Of a DNA stretch of 64,000 bases, positions 3,312 to 62,020 are shown piece by piece. The stretch covers positions 62,001-126,000 of the forward strand of contig NZ_FSRT01000002.1 of the NCBI RefSeq assembly GCF_900143015.1, given 5' to 3'. The stretch comes from Fibrobacter sp. UWB11. Its GTDB lineage: Bacteria; Fibrobacterota; Fibrobacteria; Fibrobacterales; Fibrobacteraceae. Within the stretch, counting starts at the first letter, position 1. Every line of letters begins with the position of its first letter. The translations under genes and the position numbers were made by a program. The notes under the pieces were generated by a model. The model ran no database searches. It saw only the letters and a list, made by a program, of their open reading frames with translations, and was not told the DNA's origin.

Positions 3312-7605
<4,294 letters not shown>

Positions 7606-9339: not shown

Positions 9340-9402
9340 AATCACCTCCAAATTAAACTTTTTTCAATGAAAAGATATTTATTTTTAAAATGAAGGAGTC
9401 CC

Positions 9403-9924
9403 ATGGAATTTATAATCGTCCTATTTTTCATTTTTGCACTGTTCGTATTTATTTTCGGATGGGCAATAACAAAAAAAGAGCGGCAAGCATCCGAGCTACC
9501 GCAAAATAAAGACTTATTTACTCAAGCCAGCAAAGCCGCAAAAAGATTCAAAATAGCCACAATCGTATCTTCATCCCTCCCCTTATTATTGCTCATTCCA
9601 TTCCTCTTCGATGAACCAACACACTCCACCGGGGATGACCTTCTTATATTTTTCATTTTTTTATCTATAATCATACTCTTTTTGTCAGGGACCTGCATTC
9701 TCAGCTACAATTACCTTTTCTTCACATCTAGCGATACAAAGGCATTCTATATTCTGCTGACTCCATTTATCCCCATTTTTGCCATAGGTTCTTTTATAAT
9801 ACTTGTGGGCGGCGGATTTCTCGGAGTTGTTCTGATGCTGCCATACGTTATTATTTTGGCTGTAATGGCGAAAATTTTGTACTTTAAAAGGCAAAAATTC
9901 AACGCAAAACAGAGCGAGAGTTAA
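9403..9924 (+). CDS. Small integral membrane protein of unknown function
   Basis: I do not recognise this 173-residue protein. It has about four hydrophobic segments: residues 1-23 with FIFGWAITKKER as the exit, 50-68, 78-107 and 120-160. A basic tail (KRQKFNAKQSES) follows. AAGGAG lies upstream of the ATG. It stands alone on the plus strand, and its 3' end overlaps the stop of the convergent lipoprotein gene by four bases. Confidence 0.75.
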   Translation: MEFIIVLFFIFALFVFIFGWAITKKERQASELPQNKDLFTQASKAAKRFKIATIVSSSLPLLLLIPFLFDEPTHSTGDDLLIFFIFLSIIILFLSGTCILSYNYLFFTSSDTKAFYILLTPFIPIFAIGSFIILVGGGFLGVVLMLPYVIILAVMAKILYFKRQKFNAKQSES

Positions 9925-10802
9925 TCCCCAAAAATATCATATTCGCAAATGTGGTAAGTATCTTCGAAACTGGTAAAAGTTCCGTCTTTTTTAGCATGGC
10001 GGCAGACTACCGGAAGCGAGCGTTCTCTATTAACGCATCCATTATGGACAAGAGTTTTTCCGTCAGCTTCATAGACGTTCATACAATCGACATCTTGGCA
10101 AGGGCGACCGCCCATGCCCATCGTAGAATAACCGTAATCAAAAACTTTGCCTTTGTATGTAAACCTGATTGAATAAGTTCCATGCGATCCGCCACCGTAG
10201 TATTTCACATCCGTAATTTCTTGTTTGGAACCGTTGACAAAAAATTCCGCCTTATAAACATCATATACAGGGGTTAGCTCGCTTCCGATGCATTTTGCCG
10301 GATTACTCTGCACATACACAAAGCCTTCTTCGCCATCATACTTAAAGCTACAAATGAGATCTTTTTCTTCAACATATCTTTTAAACACCGTATATGCAGT
10401 GCTGTCCATACAGAAAAGAGCTTCCTGATTTGGAACGCGGGTATCGAAAAGTTTCGTCGGGTCCGCGAGCGTTTCGCTGCTGGACGACACGGCAACAGTC
10501 GCAGAAGACGAGGACACTGCAAGAATCGCAGAACTAGAAGGGGTAGCAACGCTTGATGAACTGCTCACGTCATTGCGAGAGTTCGAAGAGCTCGAAGCAA
10601 TCCAAGAGGAACTGGAAGATTCCGGGTCAGGCACGGAATGACGGGAGGAACTGGAAAGGAGATTCCCGCTCGAGGCGGGAATGACAACCAATGAGGAACT
10701 TGTTAAATTTTCAGATTCCACATTAAATATACTATCGGAATTTTCATCAGAGCAAGCAATAAAAAGCAATGAGCAAATTGGCAATATTTTATACAAATTC
10801 AT
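9921..10802 (-). CDS. Ser-rich-linker lipoprotein, paralog 1
   Basis: The 293-residue lipoprotein has a signal ending in LLFIAC (Cys17), a Ser-rich linker to about residue 115, and a C-terminal domain of about 175 residues that is shared with the genes at 13079 and 13973. Common blocks are TRVP, CSFKYDGEEGFVYVQS, FTYKGKVFDYGYS, GRPCQDVDCMNVYEADGKT and LPVVCR. Conserved cysteines suggest disulfides. I know no function for the domain. The linker contains in-frame copies of repeat families A (10568-10603) and C (10619-10645 and 10661-10686), read as WIASSSS...SRNDV, RHSVPDPESS and VVIPASSGNLL. It is probably exposed on the cell surface. Confidence 0.85.
   Translation of the reverse strand: MNLYKILPICSLLFIACSDENSDSIFNVESENLTSSSLVVIPASSGNLLSSSSRHSVPDPESSSSSWIASSSSNSRNDVSSSSSVATPSSSAILAVSSSSATVAVSSSSETLADPTKLFDTRVPNQEALFCMDSTAYTVFKRYVEEKDLICSFKYDGEEGFVYVQSNPAKCIGSELTPVYDVYKAEFFVNGSKQEITDVKYYGGGSHGTYSIRFTYKGKVFDYGYSTMGMGGRPCQDVDCMNVYEADGKTLVHNGCVNRERSLPVVCRHAKKDGTFTSFEDTYHICEYDIFGD
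10568..10603. repeat. Repeat family A arms inside lipoprotein linker
   Basis: CGTCATTGCGAG and CTCGAAGCAATCC match the ends of the intergenic family A element (compare 30132-30165), while the middle is Ser codons. It is translated on the minus strand as WIASSSSNSRNDV. Confidence 0.75.
10619..10645. repeat. Repeat family C-like element inside lipoprotein linker
   Basis: ATTCCGGGTCAGGCACGG then AATGACGGG resembles the intergenic element at 28417-28440. It is translated as RHSVPDPESS. Confidence 0.6.
10661..10686. repeat. Repeat family C inside lipoprotein linker
   Basis: GATTCCCGCTCGAGGCGGG then AATGACA is nearly the same as the intergenic copies at 23107-23132 and 24449-24473. On the minus strand it encodes VVIPASSGNLL, a non-Ser interruption of the linker. 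Confidence 0.85.
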
Positions 10803-10813
10803 GTCTACACCTC

Positions 10814-13051
10814 TTAAAAAATATACGGACGAACCTGTTTAAAAATCAATTTGCGATCCTCCCCCATGACCTTAAATTCTATATCAAGAGCTAAAGCATC
10901 AGAGTACACATTGTACAAATTCGCAAAGTAGTTCTGAATTTTCTGCACAAATTGATATAGCTGGTAAATTTCGCCATCGGTGAGAATCAGCGAATCTGGA
11001 CTCAGCGAAGAATGTTGCAACAAGACACTCTGCACACCACGAGCCGGTGGCGGGGACGGAATTATCGAAATAATTTCTGGGAGTTCGCCGCCCTCGGGGT
11101 TTGTAATTGACGTTTCGCCCACTTGAATGTTTGCGTAAATACCCGCCACAGAATAGTCCGCGATGTTCTGTGTAATGATGACCCCATTCGCCACTTCGTC
11201 CGGATAGGCTTCATGAACTGCGACAGCCATCTGCACCGACATGTGGTCGATGTTCCAAAGAGTCCGTTCCTCGAACACCTTAAAACTCCACACAGAAGCC
11301 CAGACCTTGCGAATTTCATCAGACGGCAAATCCTTTTCGCGCGCCGTCGCCTTGACAGACTTGTAAAGCCCTGCGCCGTTGAAGTCTTCCAAATCCTCGG
11401 AATTTGTACTGGAACGCAGACGCACACCTGCTTCGCCGTAGAGCGTGCGAACTTTAGCATCGAGAGATTCGCCAAAAGTTTTATCTACGGGAATATGCTT
11501 GAACATGTAACGGACATTGTCGAGCATCGCTTCGCGGAGGCGCGTATCGGTCTTAAAATCATCACGAGCGATAATGTTTGTGATGTAACCACGGAGAGAC
11601 GCTCGCGGAGCCACAGCAGGCTCTGCATCCCTAGATACAGCACTCTGCGCTTGCCGAAGGGTGCTTATGCACGCATTCTTCACTTGCGTACAAATTTCAG
11701 ACGAACGGCCTTCTTTTCCGCAGTCTTCAAAAGAGCATCCGCACAGTTCTTCCGTGACTTGAGCGTAATCCATAAAATGGCTGTAATGATAGAACGGCAC
11801 AGCAAAACCATCAGGAGTATTTTCGGGCAGCAGTTTGTGGAGTTCAGCAAGATTTGCGGCCTTCACGCCCACCGATTTTGACGACTTGAAATTGAGATTT
11901 GCAAAATCGATGAATCCCGAATCAGACAAATCATACGTCAATTTTATCGGGTTTCGCACATTCTTATTCCAGAATGCTTGAGCTTCTTCAAGCGAAGTTT
12001 CGCCCACCGTGTAGGAGTTCGCCTTGACATCGAGTTTCACCAACTTTCCGCAAAGTGCAAGCAAACTATCGGGGAGTTCGTTCCCGTTAAAGGCTATGTT
12101 TGGCGTCTTGCGTGCTTGAGCGGCAAGATTCACATGCGAAAGCGGAGTCTGCGCGTCCTTGCTGATAGTCGCCGCAACCAGCGGAATTTCGGCCGGGAGC
12201 GTTTCGAGAATCAGAATGTCATGCGAAGAGACTATTGCCGTGTCGAGTTCTGCTGCGGTGAGCTTGCGGAGCGTCCCGTAAGCCGTTCCCGTATTCATAA
12301 TCTGATACGGAATATCGCCAAACAGTTCCGCATGCGTAAAGACGAGAATGTCCGCTTTTTTAAATTCGTTGGCGTATTCTGCAGCAGCCCTCTCAGCGGT
12401 CGAGCCCGCCGGCATATAGAACAGCCGGTTCTTTGCACCTTTTGAATTGAGGAAAAGCAAGCGATCTTGAACTAGCCTATAAACCGCAGCGACTTGCACA
12501 GGCGTAATATAATCCGTCGGGAAAAACGTCAATGCAATCATGGAATCCACAGAGGCGTAATACGCAAGCGTTCCAGCGACAGTATTTTTCTCCGCACTGA
12601 AATAAGTTTCCTGATTGAAAACAGCAAGCGAGCGAGTTTCACCCAACACCATTTCCGCAAAATCATAATGATAAAAGAACTTCTTCGAGTTCATAAAATG
12701 AACTTCGGCAGAATCCGTACCAAAATCGCTAATAAGTATTTTTACCAAATAGCTTGCGCCCATTTCTGTTTTGGACGTATACGATAATTTGCGGAAGGCC
12801 TCATAACCGTCTTCTTTGTAAAAACCGGTATATTCATCATCATTCTGGATAAAAATAGGGAGCGGAGAATCGCTAGAAGATTCCGGGTCGGGGCCGGATT
12901 GACGGGAAGAACTAGAAATTGCATCGCCACATTCTCCAGATTGTTCATCACAAGGAAGAACGAGTGCAGGATTGTCATCGCTACACGCCAATAACGCAGC
13001 CATCAGCGACGCAAGCAAGAATTGAACATAAGCAAAACGACCCAAACGCAT
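10814..13051 (-). CDS. Lipoprotein with phosphohistidine and PEP/pyruvate-binding (ATP-grasp) domains
   Basis: The 745-residue protein has a lipoprotein signal (LLAC, Cys23) and a short SSSSRQSGPDPESSSDS linker. A region of unknown type runs to about 230. A phosphohistidine swivel domain follows with TPLSHVNLAAQARKTPNIAF (His306). The C-terminal half resembles the PEP/pyruvate-binding ATP-grasp domain of PEP synthases and dikinases: KSVGVKAANLAELHKLLP, then LRSSTNSEDLEDFNGAGLYKS. The histidine domain precedes the ATP-grasp domain, as in glucan, water dikinases and unlike PpsA. ATP is not expected outside the cytoplasm, so either export, substrate or activity is unusual. It sits between paralogous lipoproteins. 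Dikinase chemistry is inferred and not shown. Confidence 0.85.
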   Translation of the reverse strand: MRLGRFAYVQFLLASLMAALLACSDDNPALVLPCDEQSGECGDAISSSSRQSGPDPESSSDSPLPIFIQNDDEYTGFYKEDGYEAFRKLSYTSKTEMGASYLVKILISDFGTDSAEVHFMNSKKFFYHYDFAEMVLGETRSLAVFNQETYFSAEKNTVAGTLAYYASVDSMIALTFFPTDYITPVQVAAVYRLVQDRLLFLNSKGAKNRLFYMPAGSTAERAAAEYANEFKKADILVFTHAELFGDIPYQIMNTGTAYGTLRKLTAAELDTAIVSSHDILILETLPAEIPLVAATISKDAQTPLSHVNLAAQARKTPNIAFNGNELPDSLLALCGKLVKLDVKANSYTVGETSLEEAQAFWNKNVRNPIKLTYDLSDSGFIDFANLNFKSSKSVGVKAANLAELHKLLPENTPDGFAVPFYHYSHFMDYAQVTEELCGCSFEDCGKEGRSSEICTQVKNACISTLRQAQSAVSRDAEPAVAPRASLRGYITNIIARDDFKTDTRLREAMLDNVRYMFKHIPVDKTFGESLDAKVRTLYGEAGVRLRSSTNSEDLEDFNGAGLYKSVKATAREKDLPSDEIRKVWASVWSFKVFEERTLWNIDHMSVQMAVAVHEAYPDEVANGVIITQNIADYSVAGIYANIQVGETSITNPEGGELPEIISIIPSPPPARGVQSVLLQHSSLSPDSLILTDGEIYQLYQFVQKIQNYFANLYNVYSDALALDIEFKVMGEDRKLIFKQVRPYIF
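12881..12905. repeat. Repeat family C-like element inside lipoprotein linker
   Basis: TTCCGGGTCGGGGCCGGATT then GACGG, translated as RQSGPDPES just after the lipid-anchored N-terminus, parallels 10619-10645 and 14809-14835. Confidence 0.55.
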
Positions 13052-13078
13052 TCTAATCTCCTAACAAACTATTCTACA

Positions 13079-13891
13079 TTAATTAGACAAACGACTATCG
13101 CCCGGACAAAGTTCAAAATTGTCGGTAAAATCACCAAACGAGCCATCTTCTAAATTAGAAAAACGGCACACAATCGGCAGTTGCCGAACTTTGCTTAAAT
13201 CATCACTATTAAAATTGCAACCGTCTTCTATAAGCGTTGTACCATCGGCCTCATAAACTTTGAGACAATCCATTTCTTGGCAAGGACGAAAAGCAAAACC
13301 ATTTATTGAAGAACGGGAATATTCAAATACTTTGCCGTCATAGCTAAAGCGGAACGAATCGTTATGGTGATTTCCGCCCCAATCATAAGTCACGTCATTC
13401 AGCGTTTCATACTTTCCGTTGACATAGAACACGGCCGAATCGACCCCAATATCAGGGTAAAAGCCCCAATGCGAAGTGCACCCCGTAGGCGAAGATTGCA
13501 CATAAACATAGCCTTCCATACCCGCATACTTAAAAGAGCAAATCCAATCTTTCTGGTCGAAATCGCCTTCGAAGCCACCTATTTCTTGCGTTAAGTCGCA
13601 GTGATAAACCGCTTTTTTCGGGACCCTCGTTTTGAAAATTTGCAGCGGATCGCCAGAGACTTCTCCCGACAATCTTTTTGCAGATGAACTTGAGGAAGGC
13701 TCGGTCGAGGATGATGAAGCAGCTACGCTTGAAGAACTTTTCACGTCATTGCGAGAACTCGAAGATTCTTGAACATCTTCGCTCGAGCTCGAGCAATTTT
13801 CCGCCCATTGATAATTTGCGCTGGAAGAATCATCACCGCAAGCGATAACGAGAACAGCAATACAACCGAACAACAAATTACAGTATTTCAT
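13079..13891 (-). CDS. Ser-rich-linker lipoprotein, paralog 2
   Basis: This 270-residue paralog of the proteins at 9921 and 13973 has a signal ending in LVIAC (about Cys18), then GDDSSSANYQWAENC, a Ser-rich linker to about residue 75 and the shared C-terminal domain: TRVPKKAVYHCD, CSFKYAGMEGYVYVQSSP, WGGNHHNDSFRFSYDGKVF, FRPCQEMDCLKVYEADGTT and LPIVCRF. Its first 55 codons after the signal are nearly identical in DNA to those of the next gene upstream, which suggests a recent duplication or gene conversion limited to the N-terminal part. Function unknown; likely surface-exposed. Confidence 0.85.
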   Translation of the reverse strand: MKYCNLLFGCIAVLVIACGDDSSSANYQWAENCSSSSEDVQESSSSRNDVKSSSSVAASSSSTEPSSSSSAKRLSGEVSGDPLQIFKTRVPKKAVYHCDLTQEIGGFEGDFDQKDWICSFKYAGMEGYVYVQSSPTGCTSHWGFYPDIGVDSAVFYVNGKYETLNDVTYDWGGNHHNDSFRFSYDGKVFEYSRSSINGFAFRPCQEMDCLKVYEADGTTLIEDGCNFNSDDLSKVRQLPIVCRFSNLEDGSFGDFTDNFELCPGDSRLSN

Positions 13892-13972
13892 AGTAATAAT
13901 ATACCTCGTAAAAGCCTAAACGCTCCAGTTCATTCTAAAAACAACCAAAACACGATAAGTTTTAATTTTTTC

Positions 13973-15025
13973 TCAATTTCGCGAATCCCCGTCGCAAACC
14001 TTAAACGTGTCAGTAAAGTCAAAAACTGGATTTTCCGCATTTACCCCTCTACAAACGATAGGAATAGAACGCTGTTCATCACAACCATTCACAACATAAG
14101 TTTTTTTATCTGATTCAAAGACATTTAAGCAGTCCATTCCTTGACAAGGACGCCCTCCCCAGCCCAACGATGATTGTCCATAACGGAATACCTTACCTTT
14201 ATATGTAAACCACAACTTTTGCACGTGATGATTTCCACCCCATTCATATTTAACATCCGATATATCCACAAATTTTCCATTAACATAAAGTTCCGCTTTA
14301 TCAACGTCATAATTGGGCGTTAAGGAAAATCCGAAAGAACAAGAAGTAGGCGACAACTGCACATACAAGAATCCTTTTTCGCCATCGTAATCGTATGTGC
14401 ATACAAAATCATTCTGCGAATATGTTTCTGTAAAAACGCCGTCTCCCCAATCTCCTTTTGCCTCGCATGTGTAAGCATCCCGTTTCGGGACTCGCATTTC
14501 GAAAATTTTCGAAGGATCTGTAGGGATTTCACTAGAAGAGCTGCTTACGTCATTGCGAGAGCTCGATGAGCTCGAAGCAATCCATGAAGATGAAGAGCTA
14601 ATCACGCTCGACGATGAAACCGCATCGTTCGATGAACTGCTACTGGATCCTTCGCTAGAGCTCAGGATGACGTTATGCGATGAACTGCTCAAGTCATTAC
14701 GAGAACTCGAGGAACTCGAAGCAATCAATGAGGAAGAACTTATTGCACTCGATGATGATTTGTCATTCTGGAAGCTCGAAGAGCTGATAGAATCCATGCT
14801 ACTTGAAGATTCCGGATCGGGCCCGGAACGACGGGATGAACTTGAAGATTTCTCGGAATTCGAACTCGATGAACTTTTCACGTCATTGCGAGAACTCGAA
14901 GACTCTTGAACATCTTCGCTCGAACTCGAGCAATTTTCCGCCCATTGATAATTTGCGCTAGAAGAATCATCACCGCATGCGATAACGAAAAGCAACACAC
15001 CCAAAGGCAATACCATTCGTTTCAT
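13973..15025 (-). CDS. Ser-rich-linker lipoprotein, paralog 3 (longest linker)
   Basis: The ATG at 15025 is chosen because a GAGGAT ribosome site precedes it and a lipoprotein signal (FVIAC) starts there. The product is 350 residues. After GDDSSSANYQWAENC comes a Ser-rich linker of about 150 residues, then the shared C-terminal domain (RVPKRDAYTC, CTYDYDGEKGFLYVQLSP, WGGNHHVQKLWFTYKGKVF, GRPCQGMDCLNVFESDKKT). The linker contains recognisable copies of all three repeat families: A at 14548-14583 and 14693-14726, B at 14645-14671 and C-like at 14809-14835. Linker length differs strongly between the paralogs while the C-terminal domain does not. Confidence 0.85.
   Translation of the reverse strand: MKRMVLPLGVLLFVIACGDDSSSANYQWAENCSSSSEDVQESSSSRNDVKSSSSSNSEKSSSSSRRSGPDPESSSSMDSISSSSFQNDKSSSSAISSSSLIASSSSSSRNDLSSSSHNVILSSSEGSSSSSSNDAVSSSSVISSSSSWIASSSSSSRNDVSSSSSEIPTDPSKIFEMRVPKRDAYTCEAKGDWGDGVFTETYSQNDFVCTYDYDGEKGFLYVQLSPTSCSFGFSLTPNYDVDKAELYVNGKFVDISDVKYEWGGNHHVQKLWFTYKGKVFRYGQSSLGWGGRPCQGMDCLNVFESDKKTYVVNGCDEQRSIPIVCRGVNAENPVFDFTDTFKVCDGDSRN
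14548..14583. repeat. Repeat family A arms inside lipoprotein linker
   Basis: CGTCATTGCGAG...CTCGAAGCAATCC with Ser codons between, translated as WIASSSSSSRNDV. Confidence 0.75.
14645..14671. repeat. Repeat family B arms inside lipoprotein linker
   Basis: GGATCCTTCG and CTCAGGATGAC are the ends of family B (compare 39727-39767), with the loop shortened to Ser codons. Translated as VILSSSEGS. Confidence 0.75.
14693..14726. repeat. Repeat family A arms, slightly decayed, inside lipoprotein linker
   Basis: GTCATTACGAG...CTCGAAGCAATC differs from the family by one base in the left arm. Translated as LIASSSSSSRND. Confidence 0.65.
14809..14835. repeat. Repeat family C-like element inside lipoprotein linker
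   Basis: ATTCCGGATCGGGCCCGGAA then CGACGGG, translated as RRSGPDPES, the same peptide type as at 12881-12905. Confidence 0.55.
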
Positions 15026-23091: not shown

Positions 23092-23106
23092 TTTAAGCCA
23101 GAAGGA

Positions 23107-23132
23107 GATTCCCGATTAAATCGGGAATGACA
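23107..23132. repeat. Dispersed repeat family C
   Basis: GATTCCCGATTAAATCGGG then AATGACA. The element ends 12 bases before the start codon of the acyltransferase gene, so it lies in that gene's leader. Confidence 0.85.
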
Positions 23133-24473: not shown

Positions 24474-24519
24474 AGATAATAATCGCTGAGCATCTCGAAA
24501 ACGACTGCGCAGCGTGCAA

Positions 24520-24786
24520 TTACAAATAGCTCTTGAACTTGGGCGTTGGTGCTTCGGCAGGCTTTTTCTTGGGCACGTAGATTTTTACGGCGTACACGTT
24601 AAAGTCAGTCTCCGCCAAAATATCGCCTTCCTGCAAGTCCTCGTAGACATCGATTTCAATTTCGACACCATCGCGTGCGATGCAGCGGATAGAACGTGCC
24701 GTCAGTTCCTCGCGCAAAAGAGGAACATCAACAACCTTCTTGTAAGTGCCGTGATGAGTCGTACCAAGAATTCGATTGCAAATCAT
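24520..24786 (-). CDS. Small protein resembling the UreE N-terminal domain
   Basis: From the ATG at 24786 the product is 88 residues. [21 protein letters not shown], then [18 protein letters not shown], then [11 protein letters not shown] and VYAVKIYVP follow the pattern of the UreE N-terminal (peptide-binding) domain, without the nickel-binding C-terminal domain. No urease genes are in the window. An in-frame ATG at 24822 would add 12 hydrophobic residues and is less likely. Role unknown; perhaps a stand-alone chaperone-like module. Confidence 0.65.
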
Positions 24787-24823
24787 GAACCGAAATATAG
24801 AAATTTCGAAGCAAGACTTCACT

Positions 24824-24865
24824 GGATCCTTCGACTTCGGGCTATGCCCTTCGCTCAGGATGACA
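24824..24865. repeat. Dispersed repeat family B
   Basis: GGATCCTTCGACTTCG...CTTCGCTCAGGATGACA lies between the divergent UreE-N-like gene and uvrB, 36 bp before the uvrB start. Confidence 0.88.
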
Positions 24866-24900
24866 ACCTCAATTTTACTTACTATTTTTCGTCTGATAAC

Positions 24901-27153
24901 ATGGCTCGCGCACGTAAGACTATTACTCCTGATCCGTATGCAAAACCGATAGCGAAACCGCTACCGCCTTCTAAGAGCTTGCCCGGCAAACTCAAGCAGT
25001 TCCAGGCGCCCACGCGTGCGGATTTTGACCTCGTGAGCCCTTACGGTGCTGCTGGCGACCAGCCCAAAGCCATCGAAGAATTGACCGAAGGATTCAAAAA
25101 CGGCGAACAGTTCCAGACGCTTCTCGGCGTAACCGGTTCCGGCAAAACTTTCACGATGGCAAACGTCATCAAGAATGTCGGGAAGCCAACGCTCATTCTC
25201 ACGCATAACAAGACGCTCGCCGCCCAGCTCTATCAAGAATTCAAGTCGTTCTTCCCGAACAACGCGGTGGAATACTTCGTCAGCTATTACGACTACTTCC
25301 AGCCCGAAGCGTACATTCCGCACACGGACACGTTCATCGAGAAAGACGCGAGCATCAACGATGAAATCGACAAGCTCCGTCTGCGCGCAACGGCCAACCT
25401 CCTCACACGCCGCGATGTCATTATCGTTGCTTCCGTGAGCTGCATTTACGGTTTGGGAAGCCCGAGTGAATACTTCGACTTGATGGTACGCATCAAGAAG
25501 GGTGACATTTACGACCGCGACAAGATTCTGCGAGACCTTGTCCACATCCAGTATTCACGCAACGATTTTAGCCTCGACCGCGGCACATTCCGCGTCCGCG
25601 GCGACGTCATCGAAGTGCACCCGAGCTACGACGAAGACGGGCTGCGCATTGAGCTTTTCGGAGACGAAGTCGATCGCCTTTACCGCTTCAACATCGTCAC
25701 CGGCGAAGTCATCAAGGAAGTTGAAGAACTCACCATCGCCCCCGCAAAGCACTTTGTCACCAAAGAAGAAAACCGCGCGGGCATGTTACAGCGCATACAG
25801 ATGGAACTCACCGACCGCCTCGCCGAACTCGATAAAGAAGGCAAAGTGCTGGAATCGGCACGCCTTTCAAGCCGCACCCGCTACGACATGGAAATGCTCC
25901 GAGAAACCGGCATGTGCAACGGCATCGAAAACTACTCGCGCATCATCGAAGACCGTGCTCCGGGCACACGCCCATTCACACTCATCGACTACTTTGGCGA
26001 CGATTGGCTTTTGATGATTGACGAATCGCACGTGAGCATCCCGCAAGTGGGCGGCATGGCCGAAGGCGACAAATCCCGCAAGACCACGCTCGTGCAATAT
26101 GGGTTCCGCCTTCCCTGCGCTCTCGACAACCGCCCGATGAACTTCGCCGAATTCGAGTACATGTACCCGAAACAGGTGCTCTTTGTGAGCGCCACGCCTG
26201 GCGACTACGAACTCAAAAAGACTAGCGGTGTCGCGACCGAACAGATTAACCGACCGACCGGACTTTTGGACCCGAAGATTGAGCTGTTCCCGATCCAAGG
26301 GCAAATGGATGTGCTCCTGTACCGCATCGAAGAAGTCGTGAAAAACGGCGACCGCGTACTCGTCACGACGCTTACCAAGAAGATGGCGCAAGACCTCACG
26401 GAATTTTTCATCGAAGCAAACATCCGAGCCAAGTACCTCCATAGCGATATCAAGACACTCGAGCGCCACGAACTCATCCGCGGGCTCCGCAGCGGCGAAT
26501 TTGACGTACTCGTGGGCATCAACCTCTTGCGCGAAGGCCTAGACCTCCCCGAAGTGAGCATGGTTGCCATCCTCGACGCCGACAAGGAAGGCTTTTTGCG
26601 CAACTACCGCAGCCTTATCCAGACGATGGGCCGCGCAAGCCGCAACGTGAACGGCACCGTCCTTTTGTTCGCGGACAATATGACCGAAAGTCTGCAAAAG
26701 GCCATTGACGAGACGAACCGCCGCCGCGGCCTCCAGGAAGAATTCAACAAGGAACACGGGATTACCCCAAAGTCCGTCACCCGCAAAATCGAAGAAGACC
26801 TGCGAATCATCGACCCGCTCGGTGACATCGGTGACGACAACGAAATTGACGAGCTGTGTCATCCTGAGCGAAGTGAAACGGAGTCGAAGGATCTCAGCGA
26901 AGACTTCACCCCCGGCATCCGTCCGATGGAACCGTTGCAGCCCTCACGCTTCAGGAAAAACTCCTCGAAGAAAGCGTCCCCCGGCAACCGTTCCGCGGCA
27001 TCCCCCTCTAACGTCATTGCGAGCCAAGGGCGAAGCAATCCAGGCGCTTCCAAGCTCGCCGACCTGGAACGCCAAATGAAAGAGGCTGCAGCCCGCCTGG
27101 ACTTCGAGGAAGCCGCCCGAATCCGCGATATTATACGCTCCATGGACGTTTAG
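24901..27153 (+). CDS. uvrB: Excinuclease ABC subunit B
   Basis: UvrB verifies DNA damage in nucleotide excision repair. The ATG at 24901 begins [17 protein letters not shown]; the frame is open further upstream but that part holds repeat B and is not UvrB-like. The 750-residue protein has Walker A GVTGSGKT (76-83), the beta-hairpin region [33 protein letters not shown], the helicase motif QTMGRASRN, and a C-terminal UVR domain (about 717-750). It is longer than usual (about 660-700). The extra part lies between helicase and UVR domains and contains in-frame copies of repeat B ([13 protein letters not shown]) and repeat A ([13 protein letters not shown]). Confidence 0.96.
26857..26893. repeat. 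Dispersed repeat family B inside uvrB
   Basis: TGTCATCCTGAGCGAAG...GTCGAAGGATC lies in frame, at residues about 653-665 of UvrB, in the linker before the UVR domain. Confidence 0.85.
27012..27043. repeat. Dispersed repeat family A inside uvrB
   Basis: CGTCATTGCGAGCC...GGCGAAGCAATCC lies in frame at residues about 704-714 of UvrB, immediately before the UVR domain. Confidence 0.85.
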
Positions 27154-30131: not shown

Positions 30132-30165
30132 CGTCATTGCGAGCCCTGCAAGGGCGAAGCAATCC
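30132..30165. repeat. Dispersed repeat family A
   Basis: CGTCATTGCGAGCCCTGC then AAGGGCGAAGCAATCC: the clearest intergenic copy of family A, starting four bases after the gpmI stop codon. Confidence 0.88.
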
Positions 30166-39722: not shown

Positions 39723-39726
39723 ATTA

Positions 39727-39767
39727 GATCCTTCGACTTCGTGCTTCGCACTGCGCTCAGGATGACA
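39727..39767. repeat. Dispersed repeat family B
   Basis: GATCCTTCGACTTCG...GCGCTCAGGATGACA, between the pheS terminator and the end of manC. A second small palindrome (GCGGGCGAAGCCCGC, 39771-39785) adjoins it. Confidence 0.88.
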
Positions 39768-60391: not shown

Positions 60392-62020
60392 TTACCATTC
60401 CGTTTGCCAATCGCGTATGAACGCGCCATTTTCATCAAGAAACATCATGTTGATGGCACCAATGCCAAATCTATAATCACCGTCAGATTCATCTTGAATC
60501 TTCAGCCTTACAGAAATCGTTTGCTTAGCAGCATTTTCCACTTTTTCTTCAATACGAGACGCTTCGTAACTTCCATGCACCATCATCTTGGTCACGTCAC
60601 TCATGTCATTTATTTCACCTTCATAAGGAGCAATACTGTCCTTAGGTAGTTTGAAATGGCCCCAATCTACACATCGTTTTACAGTCTTTCGAGAGCTAGG
60701 CAATTTCGCCCACGGCAAGCCATCCGACGTATCGCTTACAACCAGTTCAACCCTTATGGGTATTTCTGAATAATATTCAAAACAGACCGCATTCCAATTC
60801 GATATATCAACAGGTAATGGCTCTCCAGAAGCATCCTTAGCGATTCCAAAGCCGAGCGACACATACGGATCCGTCTGGCTAGTCCCCTTCTTCAGGGATG
60901 CAACGCCGCAAACACCCTTGCACGATTCGACAACCGGAGTCAACGAATTTTCCGCACCTTGCGCCACCGGCCATTTTACAGACGACATCCCGCCCACATC
61001 TTCGTCCGTAGCCCAATACCAGCGACCATCTTCCACGGCATTTTCCGGCCAAACGTTTTCAGCATAATATGATGTTTTAACTCGGTCAGGATTTTTAGTT
61101 GGAGTCCACAAAACTCCGTCATAGCCGTACAGAATAAATTCACCTGACGAATCGACCACTCCAGCATCACCTGCAGATTCCGGGTTTTCTACTTCCGGCA
61201 CACCGTCTGCTTTCGTTCCAAAATACTTGATATTGAACTTATATTGCCCAGGTTCATTCTGAATTCTAAACATCAGACCTATCAACTGTTTAGCAGACTT
61301 CTCCCCGGCTTCTCGACTCCAGCCATCCGGAAATTCTTTTTTCCAAGGTGGGAATTTAAACTGGCTCCAATTAAAGCACTTGGTAACCTGACTAAGCGCT
61401 TTCGGCAAAGCCACAGCCGGGAATCCAAAGCCATCGTCAAACAATGCACCTAGCGAATCTCCCAAATCAAGCACTAGCGAAGCAGCTACATCAGATGTAT
61501 ACGAAATGCAAACGCCATTCCAATCAGAAACATCAATCGGAGTCGGATTATCAGCTGCATCTCTAGCCATTACAAAGCCAACCCCAGCAAAAGGTTGCAT
61601 GGTCATTGTTCCCTTCTTCAAGTTGGCAACACCGCAAATGCCCTGACACGACTCAATAACAGTAGACAGGGAATCCGCATCACTACCGAGTTCTACAGGC
61701 CAGATTATGGAAGACTGCCCACCTTCGTTTTCATCCGCGCCACGAGCCTCCCAGAACCAATGACCATCAGCCTCTACATTCGCAGGCAGCCTCGACGCGT
61801 AAATTGCAGTATTAACATGGTAATCTCCCGCCTGAGGATTCCACAAATCATATCCATTCAGTCCAAAACTCCCCGAAGAAGATTCCCCCACGGAACTTGA
61901 CGATCCAAACGCCACCGTATTCGGCTCCGTCGAAGTGCCGCTGATGTTTCCGTTATCTCCAGTACAAGCAGCAAGACTCAGCACCATAGCACCGCAAGCC
62001 GTATAAAGTTTTTTGTTCAT
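60392..62020 (-). CDS. Lipoprotein with two tandem copies of a Fibrobacter-type domain
   Basis: The 542-residue lipoprotein has a signal ending in SLAAC (Cys19) and a short Ser-rich linker. Two copies of one domain of about 220 residues follow (about 50-270 and 300-525). Shared blocks are GHWFWEA / GRWYWATD, SSIIWPVELG / SSVKWPVAQG, ESCQGICGVANLKKGT / ESCKGVCGVASLKKGT, IDVSDWNGVCISY / VDISNWNAVCFEY and YKFNIKYFG / YRFGIGAIN. The beta-rich pattern suggests a sandwich, perhaps carbohydrate-binding, which is inference. Its ATG is one base after the stop of the TIGR02147 gene, whose last codons hold its ribosome site (GAGGAGG), so the two are coupled. Confidence 0.85.
   Translation of the reverse strand: MNKKLYTACGAMVLSLAACTGDNGNISGTSTEPNTVAFGSSSSVGESSSGSFGLNGYDLWNPQAGDYHVNTAIYASRLPANVEADGHWFWEARGADENEGGQSSIIWPVELGSDADSLSTVIESCQGICGVANLKKGTMTMQPFAGVGFVMARDAADNPTPIDVSDWNGVCISYTSDVAASLVLDLGDSLGALFDDGFGFPAVALPKALSQVTKCFNWSQFKFPPWKKEFPDGWSREAGEKSAKQLIGLMFRIQNEPGQYKFNIKYFGTKADGVPEVENPESAGDAGVVDSSGEFILYGYDGVLWTPTKNPDRVKTSYYAENVWPENAVEDGRWYWATDEDVGGMSSVKWPVAQGAENSLTPVVESCKGVCGVASLKKGTSQTDPYVSLGFGIAKDASGEPLPVDISNWNAVCFEYYSEIPIRVELVVSDTSDGLPWAKLPSSRKTVKRCVDWGHFKLPKDSIAPYEGEINDMSDVTKMMVHGSYEASRIEEKVENAAKQTISVRLKIQDESDGDYRFGIGAINMMFLDENGAFIRDWQTEW

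Follow-up and report, generated by a model that had tools for sequence, protein, structure and literature searches.

CGTC/TGTC-tagged palindromic repeats inside serine-rich lipoprotein linkers of Fibrobacter sp. UWB11

The lipoprotein cluster and its linkers

The window analyzed here is a stretch of 64,000 nucleotides of contig NZ_FSRT01000002.1 from Fibrobacter sp. UWB11 (positions 62,001 to 126,000), and at 9921-15025 it carries a cluster of lipoprotein genes (Table 1). An unnamed C-terminal domain is common to P0001, P0003 and P0004 and is present in 23 of the 80 genomes of the genus. The first-pass annotation had reported arms of dispersed palindromic repeat (REP) families within the linkers of these lipoproteins; this was borne out, with peptides and DNA as it described them, and the intergenic copies that it quoted for families A, B and C exist, their coordinates being right within one base. 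Folded as DNA, the REP C of the P0001 linker reaches -8.7 kcal/mol (z -4.9). When the P0003 linker was searched for a complete REP, none was found, only a half-A, and the half-A of P0004 sits within a 127-nt stretch that is 94% identical to P0003. In the orthologs of genomes G075 and G067, the site of the P0004 half-A holds a full A; the half-element is consistent with a deletion between Ser repeats. The P0002 linker consists, in this clade, of a D REP flanked by Ser, and distant orthologs (G016, G059) have a Thr/Asp-rich, non-Ser linker. It is a local exception that may have been copied from a neighboring gene, because the 46-nt repeats around D are common to P0001, P0002 and P0004.

Table 1. 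Genes and palindromic repeats at the lipoprotein cluster, with reference copies from elsewhere
Feature	Position	Strand	Remarks
P0001 lipoprotein	9921-10802	-	Cys-containing signal peptide; 3 REPs in the Ser linker; C-terminal domain conserved
REP A (35 nt), P0001 linker	10569-10603	-	reads WIASSSSNSRND; 0 mismatches to either arm
REP D, P0001 linker	10617-10642	+ (antisense to gene)	reads RHSVPDPES; 1 mismatch
REP C, P0001 linker	10660-10685	+ (antisense to gene)	reads VIPASSGNL; 0 mismatches
P0002 lipoprotein	10814-13051	-	PPDK_N domain; short Ser/REP linker
REP D, P0002 linker	12878-12903	+	reads RQSGPDPES; 2 mismatches
P0003 lipoprotein	13079-13891	-	paralog of P0001 and P0004
Half-A (right arm), P0003 linker	13743-13764	.	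reads ESSSSRNDV; direct repeat D4
P0004 lipoprotein	13973-15025	-	most REP-rich linker (4 REPs)
REP A, P0004 linker	14549-14583	-	reads WIASSSSSSRND; 0 mismatches
REP B, P0004 linker	14645-14671	+ (antisense to gene)	reads VILSSSEGS; 1 mismatch
REP A, P0004 linker	14693-14727	-	reads LIASSSSSSRND; 2 mismatches
REP D, P0004 linker	14807-14832	+	reads RRSGPDPES; 2 mismatches
Half-A, P0004 linker	14880-14901	.	ESSSSRNDV; direct repeats D3 and D4
Intergenic REP C, reference copy	23106-23131	+	
Intergenic REP A, reference copy	30133-30165	-	
Intergenic REP B, reference copy	39726-39766	+	
REP A, apparent signal-peptide n-region (L174 coordinates)	9343-9369 (G000:C1:1449343-1449369)		
REP A, apparent signal-peptide n-region (L113 coordinates)	5568-5594 (G000:C1:445568-445594)		

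Repeat families and their frequency in serine linkers

The arms served to define four REP families: A by GGATTGCTTCG..CTCGCAATGAC, B by GGATCCTTCGA..GCTCAGGATGAC, C by AGATTCCCGC..GCGGGAATGAC and D by AGATTCCGGG..CCCGGAATGAC. REP A is built of a 5-bp outer stem (ATTGC/GCAAT), an internal loop and a copy-variable inner stem that is usually self-complementary, REP C has an 8-bp stem with a 5-nt loop, and the stems of all families begin with AT. At the terminal tag, G follows ATGAC in 44 of 45 non-linker copies of A, and the corresponding base in B and C is mostly A (TGTC) or G (CGTC). With up to three mismatches allowed, 1.6 Mb contained 37 A, 35 B, 54 C and 16 D matches (those of C and D overlap), and 1.6 Mb of reversed genome sequence contained no REP match at the same threshold. 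The REPs are high-copy, dispersed and mainly intergenic, with 139 of the 205 copies in 2.4 Mb lying between genes. REPs of family B with a length of 26 nt also occur in tandem at 48-nt spacing (G069:C11:55457-55626; also G023:C76, G046:C1, G054:C137).

CGTC-tagged REPs, which include Neisseria dRS3 (CGTC-1), have a stem of 8-9 bp that starts with complementary AT and a loop of 4-5, are found mostly as head-to-head dimers, and allow the tag variants TGTC and CCTC (Di Nocera et al. 2013, PMC3733652); the paper makes no mention of Fibrobacter. Families A to D resemble them in their CGTC/TGTC end tag, AT-initial stem and dispersal between genes, as well as in having some in-frame intragenic copies, including in uvrB, and no dedicated flanking transposase. 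They differ in the internal loop and variable inner stem of A and B, and in that their intragenic copies are concentrated in Ser linkers, with one Ser-reading frame and a linker-specific inner stem. GTAG REPs associated with RAYT are likewise small dispersed palindromes that have been proposed as non-autonomous mobile elements, but families A to D end in CGTC/TGTC rather than GTAG, and a search of this genome for Y1_Tnp gave 0 matches. Across 80 genomes of the genus, family A copy number showed no correlation with Y1_Tnp, and on both counts a RAYT transposase was ruled out as the mobilizer.

Enrichment was surveyed in 2.4 Mb of the 3.76-Mb genome, which held 195 Ser-rich linkers (25.7 kb). Fifteen REPs lie in these linkers, spread over 8 genes; as these represent about 4 gene families, the counts lack full independence. 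Ser linkers hold 0.48 REPs per kb, intergenic DNA 0.26 and other coding sequence 0.024, the last figure being probably an upper bound because gene calls were mechanical. The uniform 35-nt length of the A copies and their shared inner stems suggest few founders, and the enrichment therefore partly counts copies. Ser codons (TCN/AGY) can pair mutually and might by chance mimic REP arms, and short palindromes do arise from codons such as AGC-TCN. However, 60 rounds of codon shuffling left a mean of 0.05 REPs in the linkers compared with the 15 observed, and the arms comprise IAS, RND, PES and VIL codons in addition to Ser. Chance resemblance is thus scarcely credible; the shuffles led to its rejection, and they yielded the excess of arms over a codon-shuffled control on which the first-pass annotation had staked its claim. 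The presence of REPs in the linkers is far above chance.

Reading frame and serine-coding inner stems

Within linkers, each family lies in one orientation and one frame (A 6/6, B 4/4, C 3/3, D 2/2) and gives a Ser-rich peptide. All linker A copies read xIAS..SRND (one has PRND), all B copies VILS/VIQS..EGS, all C copies VIPASSGNx or a close variant, and the D copies are RHSGPDPES-like. Of 48 non-linker copies of A, only 15 have the linker frame open, as a TGA falls in frame at most lengths; the linker copies are all 35 nt, a length at which this frame stays open. Copies in other genes use different frames, such as VIAS..AKQS in the case of A. Codons are nearly fixed in the arms, SRND being written TCT-CGC-AAT-GAC in 37 of 38 cases and IAS as ATT-GCT-TCG in 30 of 43.

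The inner stem of linker A is GAGTTC-TTC-GAACTC and relatives, and it reads Ser-Ser-Ser-Asn through codons such as AGT-TCT-TCG-AAC. Among 16 distinct linker copies, a mean of 5.19 out of 6 Watson-Crick pairs is formed, compared with 1.94 after synonymous recoding. Codons 5 and 8 covary (AGT/AAC, AAC/AGT, AGC/AGC; permutation p 0.02, distinct copies), and their joint change accounts for the exchange of Ser and Asn that distinguishes WIASSSSNSRND from WIASNSSSSRND. In a 19-copy set, pair counts lie above all or most shuffles on every measure; in the linker-only set, pairs with a two-sided change were not more numerous than in shuffles. Replacement of the loops by Ser codons, or their drift to such codons, had been put forward in the first-pass annotation and does not hold: the loops remain palindromic inner stems that read as Ser, and drift is ruled out by the complementarity they retain.

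Orthologous copies in G005 and G045 are identical over 36 nt, with only 53% identity at 4-fold sites of the flanking domains, a pattern compatible with recent spread, with gene conversion or with a DNA-level constraint. The orthologous copies in G046 and G072 differ from these at 2 and 4 positions, respectively, a comparison that rests on pattern matches with mismatches. If the hairpin itself were under selection in genes, through mRNA folding, through pausing between anchor and domain, or as a recombination site for linker shuffling, the DNA would be constrained beyond the peptide. Inner-stem pairing with its covarying Ser/Asn codons, the G005/G045 identity against diverged flanks and the fixed arm codons are what such selection would leave. 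However, three of the four changes in the G072 copy are synonymous, arms and stems would equally persist under recent spread or gene conversion, stemless half-elements are tolerated (P0003), and two-sided pair changes in the linker copies alone do not exceed shuffles; selection on the hairpin is, on balance, unlikely.

An exact search for the Ser-type A returned 31 copies in 12 of 80 genomes, all 31 of them in Ser-containing linkers, in the same frame and in several unrelated proteins, and none between genes. Its hosts include the lipoprotein cluster, an InlB-repeat-like protein, a FISUMP (Fib_succ_major) protein and an SGNH-like protein, the last named by eye from its sequence. FISUMP domains found at other places in the UWB11 genome agree with a Fibrobacter-type organism. 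A looser Ser-type pattern gave matches in 20 of 126 genomes of the class, one of them in another genus. It is conceivable, though rather doubtful, that a REP subfamily has adapted to Ser-coding DNA: its complementary Ser/Asn inner stem would be kept at once for its hairpin and for the linker peptide it encodes, and the subfamily would spread between the linkers of unrelated secreted proteins across the genus.

Origin of the linkers and of their repeats

The first-pass annotation had interpreted the repeats as the apparent source of the Ser-rich linkers, and only part of this interpretation stands. Repeat insertion into linkers is supported by the intergenic dispersal of the same families, the linker enrichment, the restricted frame and the differing sets in paralogs and orthologs. 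As for the source of the linkers, 187 of the 195 Ser linkers are free of REPs, little REP trace is seen outside the REPs, and orthologous Ser linkers of other species lack REPs although their genomes carry intergenic ones; REPs are therefore not where Ser linkers in general come from. In REP-masked linkers, 2 decayed copies were found for 0.2 expected at 4 mismatches, 10 for 2.9 at 5 and 30 for 20 at 6, a weak excess in what remains of the linkers. Orthologs in G013, G016 and G059 have REP-free linkers in genomes that hold 23, 24 and 40 family A matches, respectively. An origin of the Ser-rich linkers from REP insertions whose loops then drifted to Ser codons would suit the P0002 linker, which is little beyond a Ser-flanked D REP and is non-Ser in G016 and G059, as well as the decayed copies at 5 mismatches. 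Against it stand the REP-free majority of linkers, the scarcity of half-words outside REPs, the REP-free orthologous linkers in genomes rich in intergenic REPs, and the inner stems, which remain complementary and show no drift; such an origin is improbable.

The reverse direction, repeats spreading from genes, had also been raised. It fails as an origin of family A, of which an exact 27-mer is found in Pseudomonadota, Bacteroidota, Chloroflexota, Spirochaetota, Planctomycetota and others; what survives of it is that the Ser-reading subfamily appears to have spread between linkers. Many family A copies also occur in genomes without linker REPs at the lipoprotein locus, the Ser-type stem is found only in linkers, and no support was found for REPs passing from linkers to intergenic sites. 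An origin of REPs in linkers followed by spread to intergenic sites is thus extremely improbable, and the 27-mer across phyla rules linkers out as their birthplace.

Differences in REP set and linker length among paralogs, as described in the first-pass annotation, were confirmed and extend to orthologs: the lipoprotein cluster varies in both respects among G000, G018, G023, G052, G057, G066, G067, G069 and G075. No empty site with unchanged flanks was found for a single element, linker alignments being confounded by Ser-repeat indels.

These data are best explained, and we hold this to be probable, by the entry of REPs into pre-existing Ser linkers, the retention of in-frame copies that read Ser, and the later copying of modules between linkers. 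Under this mechanism, the four CGTC/TGTC-tagged families would enter the DNA of Ser linkers already present between a lipid anchor and a folded domain, where an in-frame insert of about 9-12 residues is presumably tolerated. Selection would then keep only copies with an open frame and an inner stem that reads Ser or other small polar residues, as the bias in frame and stem suggests; for A, the copies kept would be those of 35 nt that read xIASSSSSSRND, a frame closed in two thirds of the other A copies. From a few founders, Ser-REP modules would be copied and cut within and between neighboring paralogous linkers by recombination in repetitive DNA, which would account for the half-elements and for the variation in set and length between paralogs and between species. 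The 127-nt repeat of P0003 and P0004 and the 46-nt repeats around D are signs of such copying.

A less probable account, though by no means a negligible one, is that the linker copies stem from a few ancient insertions, with nearly all present copies produced by recombination between linkers and no ongoing insertion. The linker A copies, all of one length and with two inner-stem types, the A-B dyad that recurs within genes and paralogs, the element common to orthologs in G005, G045, G046 and G072, and the long stretches shared between paralogs would all follow from it. It is countered by at least 8 founder types in this one genome (two of A, three of B, two of C and at least one of D), where the B types measure 27, 30 and 33 nt and the 33-nt type has an un-Ser-like loop, and by native-loop B copies (VILSDSEGS) that occur in Ser linkers of other species. 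The founder types argue for repeated insertion, and the uniform 35-nt A copies for much later copying, both of which belong to the preferred reading of insertion followed by module exchange. The dyad recurs up to three times within one linker (VILSSSEGS..WIASSSSSSRND) in the lipoprotein clusters L131 (G052) and L132 (G069), and linkers therefore grow by composite REP-Ser units. Another recurring linker peptide, KVPASAESGRSKPVEGSSSS, in L132 and L138, may derive from family B or from a repeat outside the four families.

Insertion of such repeats into genes, including in-frame CGTC REPs, is already known from the Rickettsia palindromic elements, of which RPE-6 is a member of CGTC-1 and RPE-4 of CGTC-4 (PMC3733652). 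RPE-1, RPE-4 and RPE-6 sit in frame within functional proteins, and, judged from sequence, complete REPs of Fibrobacter likewise occupy open frames inside otherwise conserved proteins (the linker copies and UvrB). RPEs occur in many unrelated proteins, whereas the Fibrobacter REPs favor a low-complexity Ser linker whose composition the insert matches. Palindromic amphipathic repeat coding sequences (PMC2996958) and the coding palindromes of Nematomorpha (PMC6649704) are also cases of palindromic DNA that codes for protein, in lineages and structures that differ from the present ones as far as the available parts of those two papers go. A literature search for palindromic repeats or Ser-rich linkers of Fibrobacter returned nothing relevant. 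New features are that the repeats concentrate in Ser linkers, that their frame is restricted and that the linkers have a Ser-coding hairpin of their own. Palindromic repeats would thus add protein sequence preferentially where it is tolerated, in a frame and with a loop that match the composition of the host region, and the linkers offer a tractable case in which to ask if intragenic REPs are dual-coding elements or relics that are tolerated, and to follow how the repetitive linkers of surface proteins diversify.

Other genes carry REPs as well. In uvrB (24514-27153), in-frame B and A REPs (26858-26894 and 27013-27041) lie between the UvrB domain and the C-terminal UVR motif, a close parallel to uvrB of R. 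conorii, which carries two single REPs (PMC3733652); the true start of uvrB probably lies downstream of a third REP (24824-24864). In the lipoprotein signal peptides MNSVIASIAKQSLLALF..IAC and KNVIASVAKQSIIILS..SAC, the n-region appears to come from REP A, and the stretch from the REP to the lipobox contains no Met. An in-frame B REP (CHPERSAKGAKSKDL) lies at 2120-2162, close to the N terminus of a type I restriction specificity subunit with a Methylase_S domain (853-2343).
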